NCBI RefSeq assembly: GCF_028502605.1 | Contig: NC_079234.1 | Span: forward strand, 1,240,001 to 1,304,000 | DNA length: 64,000 bases | Direction of reading: 5' to 3' | Origin: Trichoderma breve | Taxonomy: Eukaryota > Ascomycota > Sordariomycetes > Hypocreales > Hypocreaceae | Part shown: positions 2,141-43,600 of the stretch, one piece after another | Numbering within the stretch: the first letter of the stretch is position 1 | How the letters are laid out: each line of letters starts with the position of its first letter | Notes under the pieces: generated by a model | Databases searched by the model: none | Told to the model about the DNA's origin: nothing | Seen by the model: the letters and a program-made list of their open reading frames with translations, nothing else | Translations under genes and position numbers: made by a program

Positions 2141-5100
2141 CTAAGCGCCAGGCACAACAGACCACGTTTCGGCTGTAAACAAAAGCTCTTCTTTGGCCTC
2201 CAACTCCGCTGGGTCCACATAGAGACGCAGCCCGATATTAGCATTCCCGACATTAAAGACTCTCATGATAATGTATACGGAATCTTCTTTTCCACGGTTA
2301 TCGTGTAACTGAAATCGTTTGTTAGCAGTGAACCAAAAATACATCAATCAGGGAGTCCGTACCATTTTGTACTGGTTCTTGCTTACAAAGAAGCGAGTCT
2401 CGCAAGAGGAAACCGTCGTTTTTACCTCAAAGTTGTATGTTGGCCTTCTATGCTCCCATGTACTGGCATTAAAATAACAGTTGTCTATGAGTAACTTTGT
2501 GAAAGTTCCCATTTTGTCGTGATAGACAAGATCTGACGTCTCGCGGCCATGCCAAGGTAGCATAGATGCATATTCCGGATGCTTCTTCGCATACGATCGA
2601 ATCTTGCTCTTCCAATTATCTATGCCAAAATCTGGTAGCGAGGGATTACACGCTTTTAGAAGTTCAAACACCTAAGCTTTTAGTCAGTATCAAGGGAATT
2701 CTAACCCATTCTCTTTTGTCCCTTGGAAACTCACATATAGCTCTCCTGCAGCTCCAATCATCTTGTCTCTCTCCAATTGGGGAAAGGTACTGTCAATTTT
2801 TTCATACCACGGAATTCCAAAAACACTGGAAAGTAAGGGTAAAGATTCTCGAAGAGTATCCAGGTCGAAAATACCCTTTGTCGGAAACGGCGCTCTTCGT
2901 GCAGCAGAGACGACATGCCTTAACAGCCCAAAATATACGAGATCAACCGATAAAGATTCCCTCTGTATAGAGGTAGACACTTCAACATTTTCTGCAGAAG
3001 CATTCGATGACGTTTCCTGTATAAAAAGCCTATTGGCACTCGGCGAAGATGCAAACCGGCTAATGGAAACAGTTGTATCTTGATGAGCAACAGTAGGTCG
3101 TATCGCATCGTGATCGAAGATCGTCCTTGGAGAGGAGATATCCGTTGATGGAGTCGACATATCTGATACAATTTCTGTCGAACCACGCAGCTCGGAGGCA
3201 TCTCCTGTCACCGAGCTAATCAAGATCGAGTCTTCACCAGAAAGCTCCTCACCCTCTATTGTGATTTCAATTATACCTTCCTCAAAAAGAATGTGGTTAT
3301 AGGCATAAGAATCTTCTTTCAAGATATCCTTTACTAGTGAATAGCTTCGTTCGTAGGTAGAGCTGGGATCATCCGCAGAGCGATTCGTTGTCAGCCATTT
3401 AAATAATCGCGCAGGCAAATCTCGAGCGAGACAAAGCGCTCGAGACTTTTGCTCCAGAGGAACGAAGATATCAAGGCCTTTACTAGACTCTTCCAGATGA
3501 AATTTACCGCGTCTTATCTCATGAGAATAGGACTGGCCACCTTGTTGTACGAGTTGTATGCAAGATATTTTATCTGTCTCAAAAACCTTGGCTTCTTTTA
3601 GCAGATAATACAATTTGTGTATCTCCTCACTAGTACGCCATCTTGGGAAACTAAAATGTTTGGCAATCCTGAACAGACAAAGATTATCAGCTGCATATAT
3701 CAAGAAGGGGGCCTATATGGCTTACCGGCATAAAGCAAGGGCTCTTGATTCGATGCTATGACTCAGCGCGTGATTCAGAACACGGTCATCGTCTTCCACT
3801 TTGGACGTTTCCGTGACTAGGTATGAAAGATATCTTTCCTCTAGAGCTAACCATCTTATAACAGGGCCTAGAGAATGGACTTCGTCAAATGCGAAGCCCA
3901 ACATTTTGATCTTTTGTTGAAAGCTCTCTTCTAGAGGACGTCTGTCCGCTATCGCGAACTCTGCATTGCCGTCACAAAATCGGACGTCTTGCTGAGCGCC
4001 AGGATATCGGACAGGAAAAATAGTGAGTTTTCTCATTCCATCTGGATTGATGTTTTTATAGCTGTCGATAGTATGTAGGTGGTCCTTGAAGGCGAATAAC
4101 TGTTCCTTTACCAATTCGACCGTAGGTGTCGACTCTCCTAGCCTTGAGAGCTCGCGGTAAATCACCCCAATATTGAGCGTCTCCACACCCAGGATGTCGA
4201 CGAAAAACGTCTTCAATTCATTGTAGTCGCTCTCCAGGGCCTTCTTGCTGCGAATAGTTGACTTAGACCAGAGACATTGAGAAATTTTGCTCCAGCAATT
4301 GTCAGACTTTGTATATATCAGAGCTTTATCTGCGAATTTGCTTCTGTGGATAGGTATTAGCTCTACTTTTAATTGAGTGGACAGATTTTCGCCTCAAACT
4401 CACTTCATTAATTCCTTAGAATCATTCAGCTTCTTCTTACGCAACATGCCCCAGAGCGAAGTATATAGGTCCTTGATTCTGTCAAAATCATTGGAACCGC
4501 AACTTCTTAAATCGTCTAGCTGATTGCAAATGATTTCTTCGTCGCAGTGGCCTATATCGAGTACATCGGTCATAAAGGATGCAATCGATGACAAATTACT
4601 AATTGACATAGCTTGATATCGAGCCCGGAGCGGTGCTTTGTTGGTTAAACTTTCGGGGCCTTCCCACACACAATCTTTCGGGAACATGTGTGATGAAGCA
4701 CTGTATTTGGTCTTTGGAACATATATTAATGGATTCCTCTGAAAGAACTTTCTATTTTGAAATAGCAGTAAGTATGCGTGATGCAGAAGCTAATGACTGG
4801 AACAAATATTGTAACATACCGGATATATTCCTTTTGCTTCTTTTTCTCAGCCTCATCACTCTCAACATATCTGTTATGGATGTGCTTGTAAAGGTCGATT
4901 ATACGAAAAGCATCATCTATATCCCCTCCCTTGTGGTGAGACATAATATAGAACAGGATCCAGAGGTAGAACCGAATATTGTCCTCAACGCCAACCGAAA
5001 GGCATGAAACAAGAAAGCCCCAATCTTGCACATATGTCTCGCGTGTGATTTCTTTATCGAGCTTGATGAACGGAAAGATTTCAGAGCCCCTTGAAAATCT

Positions 5101-7667
5101 TTCCCACTGGCGTTGCAGGTTTGGTAACGGAAGATAAATAAACTTAATATGCGTCGATTTGCCGCCATAGCAGGGAACGACGACTCGTTTAAGCTGTCGA
5201 ATCAAGCCAGGAGTGGATTCTATCGTTTTGCGCTCCTGCTTCCAGCTATAACGCAAATATCCAAGGAATTTATCGGCATGATTGGCTGCAATGTATAGGC
5301 ATTCCTTTGAGAGTTCGTTCGTGTTATGTTGAGATATAATTCGTATATGGCGCCTCACCCCAGCATAGCTGCAAAGCCAGTCCTTCCACGAGCTGATCAA
5401 GTTCTCATCTTCCTTCTCAAATATGCTACCCATACAAGAGTGGTGGAGGAACTTAAAATATATACCATCTGTTCGTTTGACTTTTCCAAGGAGCTCTGAA
5501 GGACCAAAAATGTTGCCGCTGTCAGGCATGTATACATCTATAACATACGCCGACTGTTTTTGACCTTCACTGTCCACTATCAAAATGTTTTCTTTGTTTT
5601 CCCACAGGCCTCTGAGTTTGTCTGTTAAGAACATAAATTGGAGTTGTTTCAACGATGATGACGATGCTGTAACCCTGAACCCACTCGCCAGAATAACAAG
5701 ACGCAAGTAGGAAATTTCGACCTCTCGCACGCCCAGTTGGTGGAAAAGGTGTCGACGATGTACATTGTGAGCAGCTTTTGAATCGATGATTTTGAGGTCG
5801 ACTTCTGGTGGAATCTCTAGTCCAGTCTTGGTTTTAGGGAAATATACTGCTTCATCATCAGGTGCAATCCATGTCCCATCTTGAAGTGGCAGCAATGGAA
5901 AACTGCACAATGAGTTCTTGTACCACGTCTCGTGCAACATGCTGCTTAAGTACTTTGAAGCTCGCGTATGCCAGTCATCATCCGCATCTTTGGATCTCAA
6001 TTTCGATTCCGCTGAATAGCTGTATAATGATAAAGCAGACAGAACGTAAGACATAGGGTATTCTGTTAAGCCGTAAGAACGTAGTGTTTTAATGTCCAAC
6101 TCGCTGTACTGTTTTGAGATGTAAGCTCCTCTATATATATCCTCAAATAATGGATTTCCATGGCAATCAAGTTGAGAGCTTAATGGGAAATGGAGAGAAG
6201 TAATTAAGCGCAAAGAATCTTCGCATATTGGTCGCAGTACTGGGGTTTCTTTCAGTCTTTCTTCTAGTAATGTAACTAGTTGAGACCAAAATGCATCGTA
6301 ATGTTGATCCTTGCGTGGTAAAAATCTCATCCAAGTATATTGAAGTTTTGGATGATGGCAAAATTTCATGATAGCTTGGATGAATGCTTCAACTATGCCC
6401 TTTCGAAGGCCTAGATTTCTGCGAGATGTCATAACAATGTCTTGCCGATTCGCCTGAGTGACAAAGTCGCTATTGATTAAAAACTTGACAATTTTGTTAG
6501 CATGGAATAAGTTGAGAGGATAGAATGGCATACGGTAAATCCTGCTTGCTTCATAGGCAAATATGCAAAAATATGTTCGTATTCCAGAATTGGGATTGAT
6601 TCCTCGGTTAATGGGAAACCTAGGAAGATCTCTGCCGAAGCATATGCTTTGGTTGCCTCTTCGTCTTCTGAATAGATACGATTGTCGTGTTTGTCGAGGT
6701 TTTCAACGTTGTGCTTGAAAATATAGTAATCTTTAGACCCGGTTTCGATGGAGTCAGCTGCATTCGTTACTTTAGTGACCCGGATGACATTTGCACTGAT
6801 ACGCAGCTTCGAAAAAATATATGATTTTTCCATTTTCCCCCCGTTATCAAAGATGGATATGCGGATTTCTTCCAGATTCCGCATGAAGAGTAGTATGTTC
6901 TCGTTTAAACTGTTGAATTGATCTAGGATAATATCGTAGTCACTGGGTAGAATAGGGCTGCGGCCATCACCAAGAAGTAGTTTCATTCGCGTTGTTGGAT
7001 GCGGCGGGCCCTCACCTGGCTCACACCAAATTGGACGAATCATTCCCAATCCATTGTCCCCATTTCTGTGCTCGAAGGCGAAACTGAAGTGACCGGATTG
7101 GATATAAACTTTCCACGCCATCTTGAAGACAGATTTGAAGCCAATGCCCTTTTGGCCGATATATCCATTCTGAACACCCGTTTTTGAACTTTGTCCAATA
7201 TCGCAGATGGCTTTGAGGTTCTTGGATTCGAAGCCATCTTCGTTGCACTCGGTAATGATGTGATCAGGATGAACTTCGAAGGAGACATACCGGGTCAAGT
7301 TTGCTTCACGTGCTTTATGGAAAGAGTTATCTTCGGCATTCTGCAGCAGCTCAAATACAAATCGTGCATCACTAGTGTATATATTTGTCGCCAGACTGGG
7401 AGAAAGAGTAAGTACATAAAAACATGTCCTAGTTGGTTCAAATGTGACGGACGTAGAAATTGTAACTCCGGCGATGCCCTGCAAGCCACCCACTGCATTT
7501 TGTAGTCTTTCGCGAACGTCAGACGGTACTAACTTCCAGTCGTCTTCATCAACGTAGCCATGGTTCTGAGCGATGGATTGAACGAGTTTGCGAGCCTCGT
7601 CTCGACTCGTTACTGGTGCGGACATTTTTTGGGTTAGATTACTATTTGGTACGAGCGTATTTGACAT
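2141..7667 (-). CDS. GHKL/HSP90-type ATPase protein, NO VEIN / sacsin-like, with nuclease-like C-terminus
   Basis: Exons (minus strand): 7453-7667, 6534-7395, 4820-6483, 4404-4751, 3726-4343, 2735-3668, 2363-2671, 2141-2308. All phases match and give about 1,705 residues. The ATG is at 7667; an internal ATG at 7625 is an alternative start. The N-terminal third carries GHKL ATPase signatures: RFVFELLQNAEDN (N-box), a degenerate CNEDGF, and QKGIGFKSVFKM (G-box). The middle is the long helical region typical of fungal HATPase-Nov proteins (for example the NPLIYVP and W..A.. blocks). The C-terminal 150 residues match the DUF3883/NOV_C domain, with GAAGELYVFELLK, TSDLVYHD and NFEVKTT. The spaced D and E-x-K are like a PD-(D/E)XK nuclease core. 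The first intron (7396-7452, donor GTCCGT) is the least certain; 6484-6533, with a TGCTAAC branch site, is clear. The cellular role is unknown. Confidence 0.85.
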
Positions 7668-8877
7668 CAACCCAAATATAGCATTGGATGTAAGAAATGG
7701 GTGTGAAAAAAGAAAGCGAAAGCTTTCGGGTCAGAAAGGCAGCCAAAAAAGAAAAGAGAAAGAAAAAAAGAAATGGCAGGGCATGCGCACTTAATGGGTT
7801 AGGATTGCAGAGAAAGGGATTTCAAGTGCTACATGCTAGTGATGTAAGCATGTTAAATACAGCAGTTGGGAAGCAATTGTTGCACGTAGAAAGACTACAG
7901 TGCCTCTATTTAGAAATTGCAGAACCAACATGCATACAACGGCCTGCTCGGAAATTGGCACTAAGCCGTGTCGGAATATCTATCAACGAAAATGTCACGG
8001 CCTGTGAAAAGAACATTAGCCGCCAGCGGTACCCTTGGATCATCGTTATGAAACGCAATAGATCTGCAGGACCGCGGGCAGTACACCTCAATCAGTCATG
8101 GTCTCGTTTGTACGGCTGAACGGAACATCTCCGTTGGAGAGCCGAGATTCCACTTTGGTGGTTACGACGTTTACTTATACGACCTGTTGCACTGTACTCG
8201 TACTATCTTGTATGCGCGCGCACTTTTATTAGCGCTATAGTGCCGAAAATCTCGCGATGCTGGGGCCGTGTTAACTACATACTAATGTACTCGTCCTTTA
8301 CATCTACGTTACCAACGAGGCTCGTTGTAACTTATTGCGGGCATGTTATTAGCCGTGCCACATATCATCAATTGAAGTCGTTGTGCATCAATGGTGTAAT
8401 TTTGTCTCGCTTCCACAAGTCCCTCGAGCCTGTACAGTACTAGAGGCAGCCTTACACTCTAACACAGATTTTACAAAATACGCCAAACAACAATACAACA
8501 TGTAAATTGCGTCATTTAATAAGAAATGCAAGTACTAGCTGTGAATACACCAAGCCCACTAAAGACGATCCGGATATATGCTCCATGGCACATTGAGAGT
8601 AACGTAATTAACCACGGCATTTGTTAGCCAGCACCCCAAGTTGGCTATCCAGCACTCTAGCGACTGTAGGTGGTTTGTTAAAGGCCCCGGCATCTACTAC
8701 AGCTACTTTCTTCTACTATCGCTGCTTTCTTCTACTATCCTTTACTTGCTTCTACTATCCTTTACTTGCTTCTACTATCCGTTACTTTCTTCTACTGTCG
8801 CTACTTTCTTCTACTGTCGCTACCTCGTACTTTAGTGTGATGCTCCCCAAACATTTGTATTCATTGCTTAATATGTT
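7668..8877. other. Intergenic with purine-rich tract; no gene seen
   Basis: This is the promoter side of the HATPase gene, with a purine-rich tract at 7700-7780 (pyrimidine-rich when read in the gene's direction). The ORF spanning 7697-8119 is basic and low-complexity at its start and resembles nothing. The tandem repeat near 8696 is listed separately. Confidence 0.5.
8696..8828. repeat. 20-bp tandem repeat, core CTTCTACTATC
   Basis: About six imperfect copies of a 20-bp unit starting CTTCTACT occur in a row. Two neighbouring copies are identical; the others differ in the CTT/GTT/CGCT spacer. The array ends about 50 nt beyond the stop codon of the micro-exon gene on the minus strand. Confidence 0.85.
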
Positions 8878-10187
8878 CTACCACCAAGATGTGCGGCTTT
8901 CCTCCCCCACGTTCTCCTCGGCCTTCTTGGCCACTTCCTCATCTTTCTTTCCCTATTTAGACAAGCCTTGTCAGTATTCTAAGTTGCGCATATTTATGAA
9001 TATACTCACGCATTGTTCGAACAAGGCCTGAAATCGTCAGTATTTTTCCTTTGCCCACCATGATGAGATGCTTACCTCTACTTTGGCGTCCAAATCCTAT
9101 GATGTTACCGAGACGCTGAATTAGTAATGACCCATCATGAAAATCGGGCATACTAACGTCGTCGTTGCCGACACGAAGCTATAGATTGTCAATAGTAATT
9201 GTACAATAAAAGTCCGATAATCACTTACAGCGAGCTCTTTCTTCCAGTGCTTCATTATATGTCAGATTACCATGACTTAAGACATCGGAATGACAGAAGA
9301 CGTACCTTGATTCGATCAACAATTTTCTTCGACATTAGTATGATATGATTTCGGCAAAATATACTTGGCTATACTTACTTCCTTCTCCTTTTCTACGTCC
9401 TGTAAAAAAAGCCGTTAGATTGTCCGTGGCATAACGAGATTGAGAAGATCAAACCTACCTCGATCTTCTTGACAACGGTCTTCAAGTTGGTTTTCAGATT
9501 CTAAAGATAGTGTCAACAGCGTTTGCTCAGTTCAACATCAGTACAAACTGTATAGTCTTACCGCCAGCTTGGTCTTGGCCTCCTGTATTTGCAAACTATT
9601 GTTAGAGAAGATACTCTCGCTCTTGTAGATAGTATGATTTACCAAACGAGATCCTTTCTATTACGTTTCAGCGACGTTAACGTAGAGATATTCTCTCTAT
9701 GTCTGACTTACCTCCGGTTGTTTATTTTTCTACAAGATTATCCCCTTGTAAGTACATGCAATAATCTCTTACGGCAACAAAGTACATACCTTTGCCGGCT
9801 GCTGGGCCGGTGCGGGCTGACTCGATTGTTAGTAAGCTGTTGTCAGTGCTTCAAAGAGTCATGTCGTACCTGTTCATTACGGCGCTGAAACAATTGGTTA
9901 GCAACATTGTCATTTAGGGAACAGAGGTGGTCGCAGAGATCAATATGAGACTCACTTTCTGACCCCGGGGGCCCTGCTGCTGGTTGGCGTCCTATAATCA
10001 TATCAGCTCTCACCTCCCTTCAACCGGTAAAAGACAGCGTTGAGCAGATGTCAGAAACTCGGCAATTGTGGTCAACTTACGTTGTTCTTGTTGGCCTAGG
10101 AGAATCAATGTCAGCTGGATTCTTGATTGGACGTATCGGATTGGAGGCCACATGGCAGATGTTCATACGTACAGGCATCTTGAGGAG
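8878..10187 (-). CDS. Micro-exon gene: basic, coiled-coil protein of about 123 residues, unknown family
   Basis: Sixteen exons can be chained on the minus strand, all in phase 0: 10173-10187 (LLKMP), 10081-10095 (ANKNN), 9956-9991 (DANQQQGPRGQK), 9870-9884 (RRNEQ), 9790-9816 (PAPAQQPAK), 9712-9729 (KNKQPE), 9643-9657 (KGSRL), 9562-9582 (EAKTKLA), 9459-9479 (TVVKKIE), 9379-9399 (DVEKEKE), 9306-9326 (KIVDRIK), 9229-9249 (HWKKELA), 9158-9178 (LRVGNDD), 9076-9096 (DLDAKVE), 9010-9027 (ALFEQC), 8878-8952 (GKKDEEV... stop TAG). Introns are 48-89 nt, GT-AG, mostly with textbook branch sites (TACTAAC, GCTAAC, ACTGAC). The chosen ATG lies in the first exon (10178). In-phase exons upstream at 10251-10265 (KYQPF) and possibly 10386-10397 (MEQL) could extend the N-terminus. 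The N-terminal part is Lys/Arg/Gln/Pro-rich and NLS-like; the centre is a heptad-patterned coiled coil; the tail is acidic. I recognise no family. The least certain exon is 9643-9657. Confidence 0.75.
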
Positions 10188-10455
10188 CTAGCATCAAACA
10201 TCGTTAGCTCATGTTAGATTACTCTGGGATATCCCTTGACGGGGACTTACGAATGGCTGGTATTTCTATGGTCGCAGCAACAGATTAGACGTTCGGTGTA
10301 GGTGGATCGGCGTAGTGCACGGAAGACTCCCTGGAAATTTGGCACTGCAAACCAAATTCAGTATTGCATGGCTTCTAAATCTTACCAATTGCTCCATGAG
10401 CAGAGATCAAGAGAGGGGTTCAGGATACTTACAAAACAGACGTGGCGTGGGACTT

Positions 10456-10500
10456 GGAGAAGAAAAAAAGAAAGAAAAGTTATCCAAGGGGGAAAAAAAG
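10456..10500 (-). promoter_or_regulatory. Pyrimidine-rich tract upstream of the micro-exon gene
   Basis: On the minus strand this is a CT-rich run with several T stretches, placed just upstream of a candidate 5' exon with donor GTAAGTATCC near 10430. CT-rich tracts at the transcription start are common in filamentous fungi. The role is inferred from position only. Confidence 0.4.
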
Positions 10501-10710
10501 CCAACAAAAGATGTGCATGTCGAACTGGAAGGAGCGGCGGTATCAGGTATCGATACCATGTCGATGTCAGGAATCGCGTAAACGTGTATGTAGGTACGTA
10601 CTCTCTGCACAATTCCTCAGGTGTCTATCTCAGGAAGTCGCGACGAAATAGTATCATTTACATTCACATATATTCTTAGAAAATATAAGATAGAAAGTAA
10701 ATAATATTTT

Positions 10711-10750
10711 TCTACTACATCTACTACATCTACTACATCTACTACATCTA
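10711..10750. repeat. 9-bp tandem repeat (TCTACTACA)n
   Basis: There are about 4.4 perfect copies of the 9-bp unit. The TCTACTA core also occurs in the 20-bp repeat on the other side of the micro-exon gene. Confidence 0.85.
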
Positions 10751-10846
10751 GCAATACTAAAAGTACCTGCTAGACGGTTTAGTTATTGTCACGCCGAAAG
10801 CGAATTGCAAGTTACAGCCAACACCCTTTGTATTGGGTAATATGAG

Positions 10847-11494
10847 ATGAGGCCTATAGCAAGAAGGAAAGCCCGCTACGTTAATAAAAGAAAAAGACGA
10901 AGATTTAGCATCGATGAGATGGAATTCGTGTTCTCCAATTATATACACGGAGCTTTCGAGTCATCGACAAAAACGCCGACCAGCCTCGACAGCGACAAGT
11001 CTGACTGGGAGCGTCTCGATATTTCCTGGGGAATTTTCGAGAGACTGGTCAAAATGTCGAAAGCTCATGCGGCGGAGATGAAAGAGCTATCCAACAAATT
11101 GACCAGAGTCGAAAGAGAACTGACAACTGTCAAAGAAGTGTCAAGCACTGGCAAGGCTTGCCTTCAGAGACTGCCATTATTCCTTTTCGAAGAAACCAGG
11201 TTGCCCAAATCATAGGCTGGATCCGCCAATACGAAAAGCCCAAGGCCAATGTCGAAACATCGAAATACGTTATACCTCGCATCGGAGAAAGGGGAATACG
11301 TGGCAATCCTGACATCGCAAATAACAATCAAGTGGTTAGCTGCATTGCACCCGAAACCCCGAGACACCTCCATCAAAAACCCAAATAAGCACAGAGACCG
11401 TGCCCTCACGAGAAAAAAAGAGGCAACGCGCCGGCTCACCAAAGAGATCGTACTTGGCGAGATCATCCTCATCAACCCGCGAGAGAAGTCCTGA
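10847..11494 (+). pseudogene. Possible decayed ORF with frameshifts, coiled-coil in first part
   Basis: A basic, coiled-coil-like frame (10847-11215; Lys/Arg-rich start, then helix-rich SKAHAAEMKELSNKL) is followed by overlapping frames 11158-11388 and 11249-11494 that read on in different phases with similar basic composition. No clear intron explains the changes. This could be a relic of a mobile-element ORF1/gag-like gene or simply chance ORFs. No family motif was found. Confidence 0.25.
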
Positions 11495-14204
11495 ACCGTG
11501 TGCCTCAAGGCCCTCAAGACAGGATTTCCCCCACGCCGTTCGACGAGATGAGTGACGATCCGGCGAGAGTCTCGTTTAATACGAGCAGCGACCATCCTAC
11601 TTCCACCTGGAGCTGGAGAGGTATACCCATCATGATGCATCATGACCGGCCACCAAGTTCAAAAGTCTATTCGAATGATTGAGGCAGAAGAATTTAAGGT
11701 GAAAAAAATGGCCTGATGAAGGATCAGACGAAACCAAGACTCCTCTCATTCCCGATCTGGATCGTATTGACGACGCATGTGCCAAGGCCTTACACCATCT
11801 AACCTGCATGCGAGAGGCCCCTAGAAAGAAGTTTCTGTCCAGTCTGCTAGCCTTCAGGAATAGTATTCCGCTCATTTCCCCATATTAGATGTTGAGAAGC
11901 TTATAGACTTGTTCAATGGGGCTTTGTTTATATATATTTCCTACTATCTGTCTAGGTACAGCATCTATAAAACCACATGGAGCAATATCTTCATGCCACA
12001 AAAGCTCAAATGCCTCAAGTATGCGATGATCACCGCAATACAAGTGCAATTGTATTTTCGCCAGACAGTAAGATGACTCGGTACCTTAAATATGTTGACG
12101 TGAACAGTCATAATAGAGCATCATCATTGTCGCCGACGGAGTTCATTTTCGCCCTCCATCTCATTACGAGCCGTGCCCATGCATCGTAGGCCAGAATTCG
12201 GGTTTCAATCACATATCTATTGAAGATTATTCACGTATTCGGTCAATAGATGTGTCTCCCCTGTCTCTTGAACGTTTATAAGGATCTAGCAGCACCAGAG
12301 TACATGCAACTTGTAATTAACCCTCAAGTAGATGTAACCAAGTATTTAACCTAGCCTTGCCCTCTGCACATGATGGGGCATTAACCACAATTATGCGCGT
12401 CATCTTGCATCATGTCCAATGAAAAATAATTAATTGGGTAGTGTGGCCAGTTATTTATCTTCGTGATGCAAGGCACAAGGCTTGAGATGCGCACGTGAGG
12501 TATCTGTCGAATCGCAAGTAAGTCTCAACCTCCAAGATCCATCAACGCTACATTGATGCCATTCTTGCATTATAAATTTGGTCTTACAGACCGTACCAAT
12601 GAAGAGCCAATGTGCTGAACATCATATTAGTTTGAGCCTGTGTGATTCTGCTGGTAAGACAGCGGATGGTTCCCTATTGCAGGCTACCTATCACCACCAC
12701 TCCTTCAATCTTGCTTTCACAGTATTACGTATTCGCCTTGACTGGGTATCCGATGTGTCTGGACTTCAATCGGTTAAAATATGCTTTATCCCAATGGCGA
12801 TCTCTTGGCCTCAATGTCTCGCTTTATTACCGAGCAAGGCATCTGACTGGTTGCCACATTTCAATCTTTTCCACCACCTGGGCTCCCTCAACGGCGGACC
12901 CGGTCATATGGGGCCGTCTCTCTCTCCCTGGTGATCATCTCCAGCTTATTATGCTCCCACCTTTAGCCGGCGGGAGTCTATCCTTTAGTGCTTTGCTTGC
13001 TGGATCAGCGGCTGCATTTATTCGCGAGGGATACCAGCCGCTTCGCATTCTAGCACTATATCAACCGCTATGGAGCAATAAAGACCATCTTTGATATCTG
13101 AAAAATATTTTGTTCTCTTCATAAATATGAGTCAAATATGACGCGGCTTACGATTTGTAAGATACGCAGAGATATCTCTCGGCGCTGAAGATTGACCGAC
13201 AGCACTGTTTCGATATCGTCATGTCGCGCGAATCAAAACTTAGAATCGCTATGGATGTAAATGCCAGCTTTTCGCAGCGCTTACATCCCCACTGCACAGC
13301 CGTGCTTGTGCAAAGCTGAATATCAGAGTACTATGTGTAACGTGGCGAGCTGAGTCCCTCGGATGATGCACATCGGGCTAGGGCTTTGTCTTACCTTCAA
13401 TTCAGAGTGTGCCTGGCACGGTAACCTAATCTGGCATCATAGACAAGATCCAGCGCAGAACCGCGATCCCTACAATCTATTCGGGCGAGGGCTGTGAGTA
13501 GCGTCATTGCTGTGTGCCTTGCCTTCGGATACACCGAAGCTACTGTGCAAACATTTGCGATAGCCCTGAACTACCGAATGCAGAAATGCTTCGCAAACTG
13601 AACTATTGGTAGTGGCAGTGATGCTCCATCGTACCGTCCAACAGATAGCCTTTTATGTCGCAGACCAATCGACAGAGCTACAGATGCATAGTCTCCAAAA
13701 CATCTCCATTGAATCCACACGATAGCCGCGGGAGTTGTGGATCTCACCGCTAGCAAATGCTGCAGCGTCCGCAATTTACTCTCTTTTCGGATATGCTCAG
13801 CTTCACTCACGCAAGGCTGCCACATGGTTTTGCTAAAATATATCCAATAAAAAGTGAATAACGTCATCTGATCTTGAATGTGAATGATATCTTTACTGAT
13901 GTACCATCACGATGGGTCATATCCCATCGATCTGTTTTTGTGGGCATGTCTATGAATCGGGCCCACGCCGAAGCACAGGCCGGGGCCGATTAGAATCGTG
14001 AAACCTTACATGAGCTCTGATAGGTAGCCTTAGTCTTATTGTCAATCATTAGTCCCTATTGAATACGCGAGGATATCTATGATGAACTCGGAAAATTATC
14101 ATGGCTGCCTCCAGACTCAATCTCATATAAAAGAACCATGGCATTCCCGCAAGCAAGGACATATTCAAACCAAACAACAAGTTCTTCAATCAGACAAATA
14201 AATC
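11495..14204. other. Gene-poor stretch
   Basis: No supported gene was found. ORFs at 12578-12934 and 12642-13094 overlap in different frames and lack motifs. The last 100 nt form the promoter of the terpene synthase. Confidence 0.45.
14124..14133 (+). promoter_or_regulatory. TATA-like box of the terpene synthase
   Basis: CATATAAAAG lies 71 nt upstream of the ATG at 14205, a normal place for a fungal TATA element with a short leader. Confidence 0.5.
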
Positions 14205-36297: not shown

Positions 36298-39200
36298 ATG
36301 GCGGGCGACTTTACTCTCAAGAAGAAGCTGTTAAAGCAACTCAGACGTAGAGGAGGGGATTCAGCGAAGCTGAAGACGCAAGATGGCTCACCTACAAATG
36401 TCCCGGTCTCAGCAAATTCTTCACAAGGTATACTCAATATCTGACCTTGATTGTTCCCGCTGACAAACCTCAGAGCACTCATCCAACTCTCATAGCAACG
36501 CAGATCCACAGACCATAACCATCTATCCCACCCCACAGTCGACCACAGATGTCTCAACGTCGTTTCCCACCGCAACGCCTGCTGCTCTCTCAGACATAGT
36601 ATTACATACCTCCCCAAAGAATTCGGTAGAGGAGCTCTGGCTGATATACCCCAGAGAGCAAAAGGCGACCAACAGTCAAACAATGCAGAAGCAGCTACGG
36701 ACCAAGATAAGATCACTCGAGTTCGTTCCAAACTTTTACAACCGACAAGGCAGGCTCTTCTTGATCTTGAGAGGACTTATTTACGACGTTTCCGAGTGTC
36801 TGATCCTCAGCAAGATAAAGTCCAAATTGAGGCAATCAAAGGTGGTCTACTCGAAAAGTCATACAGCTGGATCCTCGATCACCCCAACTTTCGACAATGG
36901 CGCACCAAGCAGAATCGGATGCTCTGGATTAAGGGTGGGCCTGGCACGGGCAAGACCATGCTTCTTTGCGGTATCATCAACGAAATAGAACCATCGACGA
37001 GATTGAGCGACCAAAACGCCGACACACTACTCTCCTACTTCTTCTGCCAGGCAACCGACGTTCGTTTTAACAACGGTACTGCCATGCTACGCAACCTGAT
37101 CTACCTACTCATTGTTCAACAACCATCGCTCGCACGGCGCATACGCGAGAGGTATGGTCCTATCGACAGAGCGCCCTTTGAAGATTCAATTTCCTGGGAC
37201 GATTTATCAGTCATCTTCATAAACATTTTGCGAGACCTGAGGGGAACGACCACCTACCTGATCATCGACGCACTTAATGAATGCACTGATTTGGAACGCC
37301 TCATTGGCTTTATCGTGGGATGTATCCCTGAATGCCCGCATGTCAAATGGCTCGTATCCAGCCGGGAAACACACATCATCGACCGATTCCTAAGGTCTGA
37401 TGACTTTGAAATGGGGCTGAGTATCGAGTTAAACAATTCTGCGTCTGTATTTGACGCTGTTGGCACATATATTGACGAAAAGGTGTCCGAACTCAAGTCC
37501 TTGCAAGACAACGAGGCTCTCCAGGAACAAATTCGGCATACTCTCCGCCAGAAGACCGACGGTACTTTTCTCTGGGTATCCCTAGTCATCCAGCAACTGC
37601 AAGCAGTGGGATCCGGGGATGTTGAGGCCGTGATTAGTGCCGTACCAACAGACCTACAGGGCATTTATGCTCAAATGCTAGAGCAAATCCACAAACAGCA
37701 CGAAAGAAAGTACTGTCTGCTCGTGCTTACGACAGCTACTCTTGCATATCGTCCCCTGCATCTGCTGGAGCTAGCTGTTGTATCTGGACTGCCGCCAATC
37801 AATACTGAAAGAGTTGAGGAATTTGTCAAGATGTGCGGCTCATTCCTTACTTTACGAGACGATCATGTCTACATGATCCACGTATCGGCTAAGAACTATC
37901 TATACCAAAATTACAGCTCGCTTCAGCTAGCTGGGGTTGCACAAAGACATGTTGACATTGCTAGGTACTCCTTCTCTGCGATAGCAATGCTGGAGAAAAA
38001 TATCTACAGCATTGACTTCGGCTTCAGACCAGAGAACCTAGATACACAACCGGTTCATCCAGATCCGTTGACTGCAGTACGATACTCTTGCATATTCTGG
38101 GCTGACCATCTCTATCAAAATAATAATGATAAAGAGTGCAAAGAGGCGTTGACAGACGACGGAGTGGTGCTCCCGTTTCTAAAAGCACACTTCCTTCGCT
38201 GGCTTGAGTGTCTGTCATTATCGAGGAGCTTGTCAGCCGGAGTAAAGTCGATTAGAGAGCTTCAGCAGGTAGTACGTTAGTGAGCCTTCTTCATGGTATC
38301 TAGCGACTAATCGCCTCCAGGTATCGCATCAAATGAATAGTCATGAGCTCACTGCCTTCCTGGGAGATGCTGAGAAATTCATCCTTAGCTATGGATCAAT
38401 CATAGAACGCGCTCCTTTACAGACATATGGCACTGCACTCATGTTCTGTCCGAAAACAAGTATTATCCAGAAAGAGCAATGGGGGGAAAGGTTATCATTC
38501 ATCAAAACAGTTGCAGGTGTCAGAGACCACTGGGGCGCGCTCCGGCAGACTCTCGAGGGGCACAGCGGTTATGTTAATGCCGTTGCCTTGTCACCGGATG
38601 GTAAGACTATAACCTCGGCTTCAAACGACCGCACGATACGGCTCTGGGATGCAACTATTGGCACGTTCAGGCAGAAGCTTGAAGGACATGGCGAGTGGGT
38701 AAGAGCTATTGCCTTCTCGCCAGACGGCAAGATGTTGGCATCAGCCTCAAATGACCACATGGTACGGCTCTGGGATGTAACTACAGGCTCATTCCAGAAG
38801 CTTGAGGGTCATAGCGCGTGGGTTAGAGCTGTTGTCTTCTCACCGGACGGTAGCACGATAGCCTCGGCCTCAAATGACCGTACAATACGGCTTTGGAACG
38901 CAGCTACAGGCATGTTCCGGCAGAAGCTCGAGGGTCACAGCGGGTGGGCTTATGCGGTTGCTTTCTCGCCAGACAGTATAACACTGGCCTCAGCCTCGTT
39001 TGACCACACGGTCAGGGTCTGGGATACAAGTAGAGGCGTACTTCAACAGACACTCAAAGGACATAGGGGTCCAACTAGGGCAGTCGGATTTTCACCAGAT
39101 GGTAAGACGTTGGCCTCAGCCTCGGATGACCGTACAATACGGCTCTGGGATATAGATACGGGTGTGCTTCAGCAAACGTGTGAGGGACATAGAGATTGGG

Positions 39201-40369
39201 TCAGAGGTGTTGCTTTTTCACCAGATGGTCAGACACTAGCCTCCGCCTCGAACGACGGCACGGTGCAGCTTTGGAATACCGCCACAGGCACGCCCCGGCA
39301 AATGCTAGAGGGGCATAGCGATTATGTCAATGCAGTTGCTTTCTCGCCTGATGGTCAGATGCTGGTCTCTGCCTCAGATGATTACACGGTACGGCTCTGG
39401 GATACAGCTATAGGCTCACAGCAAACGCCAAAGGGACATAACGATAATATCCACCTTGTTACCTTTTCGTTAGATGGAAGAATGCTAGCTTCGGTCTCAG
39501 ACGACGGTACAGTACAGCTCTGGGATACAGCTGCAGGTACACTTCAGCAAAAACTAAAACACAGCAGTTATGTTACCGTCATTGCTTTCTCACCTAACAA
39601 CAAATTATTAGCTATAGCCTCAGATGACTGTATAGTATGGCTTTGGGACATAATTACGGGTACATTTAAACAAGCGCTCAAAGGACATAGCAGCTGTATT
39701 AACGCTATAGCTTTTTCACAAGATGGGAAAACGCTAGCCTCAGCCTCACACGATTGCACAGTACGGCTCTGGGATACAGCTACAAATACACTTCAACAGA
39801 CACTTAAGGGACACACTGAGGCTGTCGGGGCTATTGCTTTCTCACCCAATCGCAAAACGTTAGCCTCGGCCTCAGTTGACCGTACGGTGCGGCTCTGGGA
39901 TATGACCACAGGCACGCTTCAGCAGACTCTTCAGGTACAGAGCATTTCAGCTTGGGTCACGGCCATTGCTTTCTCACCCAACGGGAAGATGCTAGCCTTG
40001 TCCTCAACAGACCACACAGTGCAGCTCTTAGATGCCGTTACAGGAGCGCTCCAGCAGACGCTCGAGACTAATCAACTCCTCACGAAACTGGCATTCTCGA
40101 ACGATGGTCGGTATCTGAACACGGACTATGGAATACTCAGATTTGCAGAAACCGCTTTATACGAGAAGTCTCACGGCAAGAATGCTTCTGATTATGCACT
40201 ATTCGTCGAGAAAGAGTGGGTGACTCTTGGCGGGAGGAATATTCTTTGGCTCCCTCACGAGCACAGGCCTGCTTGTGCAGCTACGTATGGTCAAACTGTT
40301 GTCCTAGGTCATCGTCCTGGCGGGTTGACATTCTTGCAATTCAATTTTACAGATCTGGATTGTTATTGA
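36298..40369 (+). CDS. NLR-like STAND protein: NACHT NTPase with 12 WD40 repeats
   Basis: The proposed exons are 36298-36427, 36474-36598, 36655-38268 and 38321-40369 (about 1,305 residues). An alternative second intron, 36626-36675, also keeps frame. The N-terminus is short, basic and then Ser/Thr-rich, with no HET or lipase domain. The NACHT region starts with [17 protein letters not shown], then Walker A GGPGTGKT (about residue 180), Walker [11 protein letters not shown], and the winged-helix-like part ending in [11 protein letters not shown]. After the splice at 38268/38321 a linker leads to 12 WD40 repeats of about 42 residues and a degenerate thirteenth. The layout is that of HET-E/HNWD-type fungal NLRs, where WD repeats sense a ligand and NACHT oligomerises. 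Ligand and effector are unknown here. It converges on a second NLR gene. Confidence 0.85.
38540..40060 (+). repeat. WD40-coding tandem repeats, about 126 bp per unit
   Basis: Twelve units of about 42 codons each carry GH near the start, FSPDG in the middle and a WD/WN end (LWD). Units 1-7 resemble each other most. Units 9 (no GH), 12 (LLD for LWD) and a thirteenth fragment are diverged. Confidence 0.9.
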
Positions 40370-40665: not shown

Positions 40666-43600
40666 TCAGGTAGTCTCCGCTCTTCTAGGCTTTCTCTTGA
40701 CAGACTCCTCGTCAACCTTGTCTTCAGGCCTTGTCATTGCCTTAAACTTCTTCAACTGGCCACGAGCAAGTATTCTCATTCCAACTTCGTCGACATATCC
40801 AGATAACGCGTCGAGTATCTCATCCCCAAACCTAAGAAGGCGCTCAAGCCTGGAGAAGTTATCGAGTGCGAATTTCGCCTCGTAGCTTAAAATTTCAGAG
40901 ATACAGCATTCTCTCTCTCGGTTAGTTCCAAAATTTGAGACAATTGCGTTCGCCAAGGCAAGTTGTGTCTCAGCCTCACTGCTGTACGCGCGGCATTTTT
41001 GTTCAAGAACTTGTGCTGCATTTTTCTGGGCGTTGTCTGAAAGCCATTCTTGTATGAACAGAGGGAAGCCTAGAAGGCAGGCGAAAACGATTGGTGAACA
41101 TCGGACAGAGAAGAGGCTTGTTGAAGGCCAGACATCCAAGTCATTCGAACTCTTGCTAGATCCCTCAATGTAAAGAGAGCCTTCTTTCGTTAGGAGACGT
41201 CCGGAACGGTGTCGCTTCATAAGGAATTTAATTTCTGCCATCATATCAGATGACAACAACCATGCGGAACGTGTAGGATATGTCATTATTAATCGGTATG
41301 CTTGAAATAATGATTGCTTTGCGATTTGATGAGTACCCCCAATCTCCACACAATCTGCGGACATCTCTACGAGGTGAAGTTTTGCTGCTCGGAAATGGTT
41401 CGCCCAATATGTTGAGCTGTATTCAAAGAAATCGTCGGAAATGCTCAATCGGCGTCTGAATTCCCTTATACCATCGTCATATACTGTTTGATCATGCTCC
41501 CATGCATCTTCAATGAGCGCTTCAAGTTCCGTTGTTTCTGGGCGTTGCCTGTATATCGATAGGTTGGCTAAGCAGCATTCACTCATTACAAAATGAGCCT
41601 CTTCTTCGGTGTTTATTGACCCTCTCCATTTAACAGCGTTCTTTGGTAAAAGTTCAGTGCTTGACGATTTCGTCTGAAACGAGAAGACTTTCTGGTTTTC
41701 GTTTGTGATCCTGTCCATTGAGGTCTGCATTACCGGCGAAAGGAACTCTTTCGCCGTTTGGTGTATAAAGAATAGTTTGCCATCATATTCGGTAATGAAA
41801 AATCCGCATGTGTTAATGACCCATTCCTTAAAAGCTGTTTCATCTGATAAACCAAGATCTTCCAAAGAGTCTAGCAAGTATTTGCCGCGAATATTGACAG
41901 CTACGTTTGCTGCACTCATACTCAGAGGCTCCTTAGCGACATAGATGAGACGCAAGAGTGTCTCGACATGCCTGCGATTGGTACTGCTGACATTGGATAA
42001 CAGTTTTTCGTAAGCTCCAGGAACATCCTCGGGGAGCTGATCCAAAAGGTCTCTCCACCCATCCAGATTCAGTGGATAATTGTTGTCTAGGAATTTGAAG
42101 ACGAGACGAACCCAAAGATATGTCCGCTGCCCCTTTCCCTTCGTGTGAAGTCGTTCATACAGCAGCTTAGATACCTTTTGGCCTAGCCTTCTGTCTTCAA
42201 TCAGACTCTCAACGCGGTGGCGGAAAACAATGTCAATCTCATTCTGCAACTGATCTTTCTCACTCTTCTCTTCCCCTTCTAGACGCACAAGATTCTCAGC
42301 AATAGATCGGAACGAGCCTATAATTGCTGGATAGCCCCGGCTTGTAATTAAGAATCGTATACGCCTCTTGCTAAACTGATGAGAGGCGAGCAAACGCACC
42401 AGTCTTTCACGGCCGTCGCTATTACACTCATCAAATGCGTCGAAAACGCAAAATACAGTTCTCTCTGAGAGGTTCTCGCAAGCGTCCTCGATAAGCCCCC
42501 ATAAATGGCCACAGTCTTTGAGCAACTCAGGCGACAACTTCTTGATATTTGTCCCTAGAGTATCGAGAACATCTGGGCAGAGATTGAGGAGCTGATGAAG
42601 AATGGCGCTCAGTGCGTTTATCAAATTGTTTTGCACCGGATTATCTTTGAAGAAGAAATATCCAATAACGGCATCTTCTCGCTGAGACGGCAACTCTGTT
42701 TCGACCAAGAATCGGGCTAATACCGACTTACCGCAGCCTGGTTCAGCCGTGACGAGAAGCAATTCGTTTTTGGTGGAATTCAGCCACGAGTTATACTTTG
42801 GGTGTCTACAAAACCACTCACAAGTACCTGGGTGCCTTTGAGGGTTGAATTCCATTTGATCGCGGTACGTGGTGGCTCCAAATCGCGAAATGAGCCCTAC
42901 CAGATCCTCTCTCCTCTCGGCAGCCCTCGTTTTTTCAGCTCTAGTGGCAGCTTCGTTAAATTTCTTGACTTCAGCCAGGATATCCCTGGTGTTTGACGCT
43001 GTTTGCAAGGAATACTCCGCCAATGTGTTTATTCCATAACTCTGGAGATCCTTTTCAATTGCTTCCCCGTACTTTTTGATATCCTCTAGCTTACCTTCCC
43101 AGCCGCTCAGGCTAACAATGTCTCCAAGGACGCGGACGACTGGATGTGTGCTGTAAGCCCGGCAGGCGCATTCCATCTCGAATTTTAGGAGAGATGTGAA
43201 CAGGGTGACGACATTGTCTCTGAGGCTGCTTCGGTGTTGTTGAAGTGCGACGTTGTCTGGCCACTCCCGCTGCAAGACCACTTTGGTCAGTGGGATATAC
43301 CAGTCCATGCGGTTCATTACATATTCTAGCCCCTCAGTCATTTTTTCTTCTTCTTTAATTGGTTTAACAATGATCTGGTTTAATTAGTACGATGATACGA
43401 CCAGCATATGAGAACACTTACCGGGAGCAAGAGGCAGATGCCTGACCAGGCCATGGCGGCTGGTGGATGGGCTTGCAGGGCGTCTCCAACCCCTTTACCA
43501 ACATTTGCAATTAGTGTATCGGCGTACAAGGCGACATTTTTCCAAGTCTTCTCTTGCTTGGCCTTTTCCAAAACCGGACTTAGAGTAGCCTTCATCATAT

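Follow-up and report, generated by a model that had tools for sequence, protein, structure and literature searches.

A conserved Trichoderma micro-exon gene whose exon borders coincide with the heptads of a predicted coiled coil

In fibrillar collagen genes exon length is a multiple of the protein repeat, and 54-nt exons of Gly-X-Y repeats are joined in phase. The study cited for the microexons in the nank (NACHT-ankyrin) genes of Tuber melanosporum is reportedly Iotti 2012 (doi 10.1016/j.funbio.2011.11.009). In the available portions of three papers, alternative splicing is said to diversify these genes through codon-sized microexons, described as "multiple" (PMC4986451) or "tens" (PMC3689799) and called 3-bp microexons in PMC10197012. 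Schistosome micro-exon genes (MEGs) are described in the accessible text as having 10–20 very short exons of 3–81 nt, mostly multiples of three with 15 nt the commonest length, introns of 100 to about 5000 bp, and secreted products (PMC10526429). The bicycle genes of aphids have about 17 exons per gene, many of them micro-exons and nearly all in one phase, phase 2, according to the part of the source available (PMC9168663). Within filamentous fungi, a microexon is reported in Xlr2, a zinc-cluster transcription factor of Trichoderma virens, in a 2024 paper whose available text says that this group had no previously described functional microexons (PMC11121469). P450 genes of Phanerochaete chrysosporium contain microexons of 2–10 codons and introns of 45–55 bp (PMC1184071). 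In that source, as available, the microexons are scattered among long exons (6 to 1048 bp), and no heptad layout is described. Schistosomes and aphids have established micro-exon arrays, and truffle nank genes are reported to have them; that the 2024 paper could still make its statement shows a thinly known field.

The locus described here lies in Trichoderma breve T069 (Hypocreales) on the minus strand (10397–8878) of the window, the whole 64,000-nt stretch of DNA analyzed, which spans positions 1240001–1304000 of its contig, and has 18 exons and 142 codons in its predicted joined frame. It resembles nank as a fungal gene with many tiny in-frame exons, but nank genes encode NLR-type receptors and, in the available text, have 3-bp exons and reported alternative splicing, whereas the T. 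breve gene has 15–42-nt exons and a small predicted coiled-coil product. No Pfam match above cut-off was found for NACHT or ankyrin domains in the 130-residue protein, and the model has no 3-bp microexon, its exons being at least 12 nt long and the splice-signal program having scanned exons from 9 nt. All 16 internal exons fall within the 3–81 nt range described for schistosome MEGs and are multiples of three, five of them being 15 nt, but the introns differ from the lengths given in that source (48–89 nt in 16 of 17 and 120 nt in one). MEG proteins are secreted as far as the source goes; by eye, no signal-like hydrophobic stretch is seen at the T. breve N-terminus, in MEQLKYQPFLLKMPANKNN. The gene shares with the bicycle genes, as their source describes them in part, many micro-exons and a high exon number (18), but differs in phase (0 rather than 2) and in being found as one copy rather than as a large putative effector family. 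The Xlr2 micro-exon belongs to the same genus but is single in the text available, not part of an array, and the T. breve protein has no Zn(II)2Cys6 match in Pfam above cut-off and one cysteine in 142 residues. An analogy in layout can be drawn with fibrillar collagen, with 54-nt Gly-X-Y exons there and 21-nt coiled-coil heptad exons here. A literature search of titles and abstract starts, with few subscription journals, found no one-heptad-per-exon gene among the matches listed. A sequence-only reading of this DNA had named no described fungal family with such a layout. Micro-exon arrays do have relatives in kind, nank of T. melanosporum among them, while for the heptad layout the statement stands within the partly available literature searched.

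All 16 internal exons are 15–42 nt long and divisible by three, and all 17 introns are in phase 0 (Table 1), so that leaving out any internal exon would keep the reading frame. Both the phase and the skippability had been read correctly from the sequence. The same reading counted at least 16 exons and 123 residues, with fifteen exons of 15–36 nt and seven consecutive exons of exactly 21 nt. Its minus-strand array of tiny exons is upheld, but the count becomes 18 exons and 142 codons; the 15–36-nt range covers 15 of the 16 internal exons and misses one of 42 nt, and the supposed run of seven is in fact 21, 42, 21, 21, 21, 21, 21, six members being 21 nt and the exon at 9500–9459 being 42 nt. 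Its intron range of 48–89 nt fits 16 of 17 introns, with the 120-nt intron 1 outside it. The introns have GT donors, branch-like sites, and AG acceptors, as had been described, but among the weaker sites are the donors GTACGA and GTAAAT and the AAG acceptors before exons 13 and 14. GC content is 0.52 in exons versus 0.40 in introns. There are two candidate starts: MEQL in exon 1, giving 142 residues and matching the T. harzianum and T. guizhouense entries, or the exon-3 ATG, giving 130 residues and matching the T. breve entry. The 36-nt form of exon 5 agrees with P0001, P0007, and P0008; an earlier donor used by the program gives 24 nt, also divisible by three. Two candidate exons were rejected. 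A 94-nt candidate for exon 2 contains an in-frame stop and was replaced by the 15-nt exon KYQPF on the basis of P0007 and P0008, and a 21-nt form of exon 11 (9479–9459) needs an internal AAG acceptor, while P0001–P0006 all have 14 residues there. Five N-terminal exons (2, 3, 4, 6, and 9; window positions 10081–10265 and 9643–9884) share a length of 15 nt.

Table 1. Exons and introns of the T. breve locus, in window coordinates. Deposited proteins: P0001, T. breve entry T069G_04805; P0002, T. simmonsii; P0003, Trichoderma sp. SZMC 28012; P0004, T. cf. simile; P0005, Trichoderma sp. SZMC 28011; P0006, T. afarasin; P0007 and P0008, the T. harzianum and T. guizhouense entries; P0009, T. lentiforme CFAM422_003537.
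Feature	Position	Strand	Length and remarks
Exon 1	10386..10397	-	12 nt, MEQL, possible start codon; P0007 and P0008 begin MEQLKYQPFLLKMP
Intron 1	10266..10385	-	120 nt; implied by P0007 and P0008
Exon 2	10251..10265	-	15 nt, KYQPF; backed by P0007 and P0008
Introns 2–17 with exons 3–17 between	8953..10250	-	introns 48–89 nt each
Exon 3	10173..10187	-	15 nt, LLKMP; its ATG at 10178 is an alternative start, the one at which P0001 begins
Exon 4	10081..10095	-	15 nt, ANKNN
Exon 5	9956..9991	-	36 nt, DANQQQGPRGQK; 24 nt in splice-signal program
Exon 6	9870..9884	-	15 nt, RRNEQ
Exon 7	9790..9816	-	27 nt, PAPAQQPAK; not in P0001; 8/9 residues in P0007
Exon 8	9712..9729	-	18 nt, KNKQPE; not in P0001; placed against ATKQPR of P0002
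Exon 9	9643..9657	-	15 nt, KGSRL; not in P0001; placed against KGSRE of P0002
Exon 10	9562..9582	-	21 nt, heptad EAKTKLA
Exon 11	9459..9500	-	42 nt, two heptads NLKTNLK TVVKKIE
Exon 12	9379..9399	-	21 nt, heptad DVEKEKE
Exon 13	9306..9326	-	21 nt, heptad KIVDRIK; not in P0001, present in P0002–P0006
Exon 14	9229..9249	-	21 nt, heptad HWKKELA; invariant in five strains compared
Exon 15	9158..9178	-	21 nt, LRVGNDD; seven residues, heptad pattern broken; most variable exon of block
Exon 16	9076..9096	-	21 nt, heptad DLDAKVE
Exon 17	9010..9027	-	18 nt, ALFEQC
Exon 18	8878..8952	-	75 nt including TAG stop; conserved C-terminus GKKDEEVAKKAEENVGEESRTSWW

A dynamic program was used to chain introns by donor, branch-site, and acceptor scores, with exons of 9–48 nt, an intron limit of 110 nt, and general fungal consensus weights rather than weights trained on T. 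breve. Both strands were scanned in the window and in another twenty stretches of 10 kb from this genome (264 kb, or 0.7% of the 38.5-Mb assembly of nine contigs), keeping at most the four best chains per strand and stretch. The locus yielded a chain of 16 introns with a score of 97.0. Among the chains kept, the next best in the 264 kb had two introns and a score of 14.2, and none elsewhere had more than two introns. Dinucleotide shuffling of the locus, repeated 1000 times, gave a top score of 18.4 and no best-scoring chain of more than five introns. A run without the reading-frame rule recovered the same exons, with 15 of 15 lengths divisible by three (odds of ~7e-8 if lengths are independent). 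Exon 1 was beyond the reach of the program because intron 1 is longer than the 110-nt limit. Since the scan covered only 0.7% of the genome, further micro-exon array genes may exist in T. breve. Two-intron chains around 21-nt and 15-nt exon candidates were among the best elsewhere (stretch L017, 9007–9140, and stretch L009, 7430–7561, both on the plus strand); these may be single micro-exons or may have arisen by chance.

With the spliced protein as query, a database of 5.8 billion proteins yielded eight matches, all of them Trichoderma hypothetical proteins, including that of T. breve (E values of 4.6e-44 to 4.8e-21). A profile search, which scored the 8000 candidates sharing the most words, added a ninth member from T. 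lentiforme (E 2.4e-5, over 18% of the query). A third search added no protein, leaving nine in all, every one from Trichoderma. The structures of the related genes are inferred from these deposited proteins, not from DNA. P0002–P0006 align with exons 10–18 over 86 residues with no gap and 63–68 identities, so that conservation in relatives, expected if the exons are real, holds at the protein level in five strains. For P0002–P0004, gapless placement over exons 8–18 also fits in length, with 3, 1, and 3 of 6 identities in exon 8. Mean identity in exon 15 is 0.34 in the five strains. The N-termini of P0002–P0006 are unlike the T. breve model, and no counterpart of exons 4–7 was found in them by alignment.

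The remaining entries differ from the model in various ways. P0001 matches the MP of exon 3 joined to exons 4–6, 10–12, and 14–18, letter for letter, and lacks exons 7, 8, 9, and 13, all in frame. P0007 and P0008 start with exons 1–6 exactly, and most of the coiled coil is missing. P0009 has exons 4–7 joined at matching sites and seems to read them in the wrong frame, a mistake in annotation for which the micro-exons are probably responsible. It has four residue differences from the T. breve sequence in that frame, three of which lie at third positions of the true frame (codons read by hand), a pattern that would fit coding constraint, four differences being few. The gaps in the P0007, P0008, and P0009 models look like predictor error. 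Those in P0001 are compatible with skipping but are equally expected from predictors dropping weak exons, since the P0007–P0009 models also omit most of the coiled coil. The expectation that ordinary gene finders would miss such a gene did not hold, as nine Trichoderma entries are deposited, T069G_04805 included, but the annotation is incomplete and the models disagree. This disagreement suggests that genes of this kind are misannotated, not absent. Taken with the splice-signal scan, the relatives identify the locus, at the level of sequence, as a real protein-coding micro-exon gene that is conserved and unusual.

With exon 11 split in two, exons 10–16 form eight seven-residue units (56 residues). 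These contain 16 strong hydrophobic residues (V, I, L, M, F, W, or Y), 12 of which are at exon positions 2 and 6, where the sequence-only reading had noted most of them; the pattern is imperfect, as exon 12 has K at position 6 and exon 15 has no hydrophobic residue at either position. Positions 2 and 6 give the best heptad register in all six sequences compared (T. breve and P0002–P0006), and the observed count was reached by 0 to 5 of 20000 permutations across the six (0 of 20000 in a separate run for T. breve only). Each heptad exon reads c-d-e-f-g-a-b and exon borders fall on heptad borders, a claim of the sequence-only reading that proved sound once one exon length was corrected. Domain searches gave weak matches. 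All Pfam matches to the 130-residue protein were below their cut-offs. Family libraries searched with six members gave weak matches, many of them to coiled-coil families (SMC, ATG16, and golgin, for example) and some to unrelated names, among the best 25 of 27 and 33 families. The best PDB match had an E value of 0.025, all matches being weak. No RNA family reached its gathering score in 8000–11500.

The eight introns that bound exons 10–16 (introns 9–16) are spaced by 7 or 14 codons and share one heptad position and one phase. Random phase-0 insertion would give that spacing with a probability of about (1/7)^7, an approximate value only, the stretch having been picked post hoc. One heptad position and one phase point to duplication of an exon-intron unit over scattered insertion. 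Likeness among these eight introns is not above that of dinucleotide shuffles, in agreement with the earlier statement that the introns are not alike, but that statement needs qualifying for introns 2–17, whose mean likeness is slightly raised (reached by 19 of 500 dinucleotide shuffles). Against base-composition shuffles the mean intron likeness is 6.28 versus 6.03 (sd 0.13), or about 1.9 standard deviations above. The excess vanishes once the 3' 33 bases are removed (146 of 500 shuffles reach it) and so probably reflects shared branch and acceptor signals. The 21-nt units resemble each other (p 0.005), which may stem from the shared heptad pattern itself, and a duplication test on exon DNA is confounded to that extent. 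We infer unit duplication from phase and length alone. An origin from introner-like introns was set aside as unsupported, no direct repeats remaining at the locus and the introns of the heptad block being unlike each other.

Protein searches of the T. breve genome at E values up to 10, with P0003 and the spliced protein as queries, gave the locus itself as the sole credible match; a match of 24% identity at E 0.148 was taken as unrelated. A DNA search in which the entire locus was the query (E up to 0.001) found the locus alone, and introns this short could be missed by such a search. Exon 1 and its donor, written as a degenerate pattern, have a single genomic occurrence. Exons of 21 nt cannot be found singly, so these searches would overlook a paralogue whose last exon has diverged.

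Two alternatives concern the reality and origin of the array. We give virtually no credence to a chance run of splice-like signals in non-coding DNA, which has nothing in its favor beyond the shortness of each exon and has against it the 16-intron array when set against the shuffle and genome nulls, the eight relatives deposited in addition to the T. breve protein, and the gapless conservation of the protein, which already refutes it. An older, unbroken coiled-coil gene could instead have been cut by many intron insertions, the heptad spacing being a by-product of site preference or phase-0 selection. Separate insertions would leave the introns around exons 10–16 mutually unrelated and without direct repeats, as observed, but they would hardly place eight introns at one heptad position (the rough (1/7)^7 given above), and the genome DNA search, within its limits for short introns, finds only the locus itself; we judge this origin quite improbable. 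The most probable joint explanation, held with reasonable confidence, is a Trichoderma micro-exon gene for a small coiled-coil protein, probably mostly constitutively spliced, with exons derived from a duplicated heptad-sized unit. Counting against it are the mutually unlike introns of the heptad block and the lack of direct repeats, the unrelated names among the family matches, the N-terminal exons, whose 15–36 nt are not heptads, and the interruption of the heptad at exon 15. Intron definition fits short introns that each carry a donor, a branch site, and an acceptor, and tiny exons are then not hard to splice. The pre-mRNA would be spliced in this way, with each 48–120-nt intron recognized as a unit, and exons of 12–42 nt would be no obstacle. 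The predicted product has 130 or 142 residues and is intracellular by its look. Its N-terminus, rich in Q, N, P, and K, would be flexible and be followed by an amphipathic helix some six heptads long, which breaks at exon 15 ahead of a conserved C-terminus. The protein most likely acts as a coiled coil, pairing with itself or with another protein. Tandem duplication of a 21-nt exon together with its intron is the most likely source of the array, at a time remote enough for the introns to have lost their resemblance. With all units in phase, an exon gained or lost would alter coil length and leave the register intact; such change probably acts mainly over evolution, most exons probably being included in most transcripts.

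The same in-frame layout can be read as a splice-tuned ruler, in which regulated skipping of heptad and N-terminal exons lets a single gene produce coils of many lengths with various N-termini and explains why every exon is in phase. The predominance of intron definition in fungal splicing, which favors intron retention over exon skipping, counts against this reading, as do the presence of exon 13 in all of P0002–P0006 and the omission of many exons from P0007, P0008, and P0009 in ways that resemble predictor error. For it are the 16 of 16 internal exons that are skippable in frame, the deposited T. breve protein without exons 7, 8, 9, and 13, and several weak splice sites. It also has precedents, as far as the available parts of the papers go, in the alternatively spliced codon-sized microexons of nank (PMC4986451, PMC3689799, PMC10197012) and in the one regulated microexon reported in T. 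virens Xlr2 (PMC11121469). Regulated exon skipping in the T. breve gene is possible, but we think a splice-tuned ruler of this kind unlikely, if worth keeping in view. It is doubtful, too, that splicing adds or removes single heptads to give graded coil lengths in register, a spliceable molecular ruler, with the exon born as a copy of a structural repeat. An 18-exon, 142-codon gene in a culturable mould offers a clean test of the splicing of many tiny exons by intron definition, and of whether exons are born as copies of one structural repeat.

Minisatellites flank the gene, with a 20-nt unit in 6.8 copies just downstream of the stop (8693–8823) and TCTACTACA in 4.4 copies upstream (10711–10750). 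Elsewhere in the window, four long open frames lie in a row on the minus strand at 2690–7730. The frame at 6477–7730 (minus) matches a sacsin domain, with an HSP90-like ATPase match below cut-off, and the other three have no Pfam match; together they are possibly one sacsin-like gene split by introns. On the plus strand, a NACHT open frame with a WD40-repeat frame after it lies at 36496–40369, and an NWD-type NACHT gene adjoins it on the minus strand (40666–43383), forming a pair of NLR-like genes.
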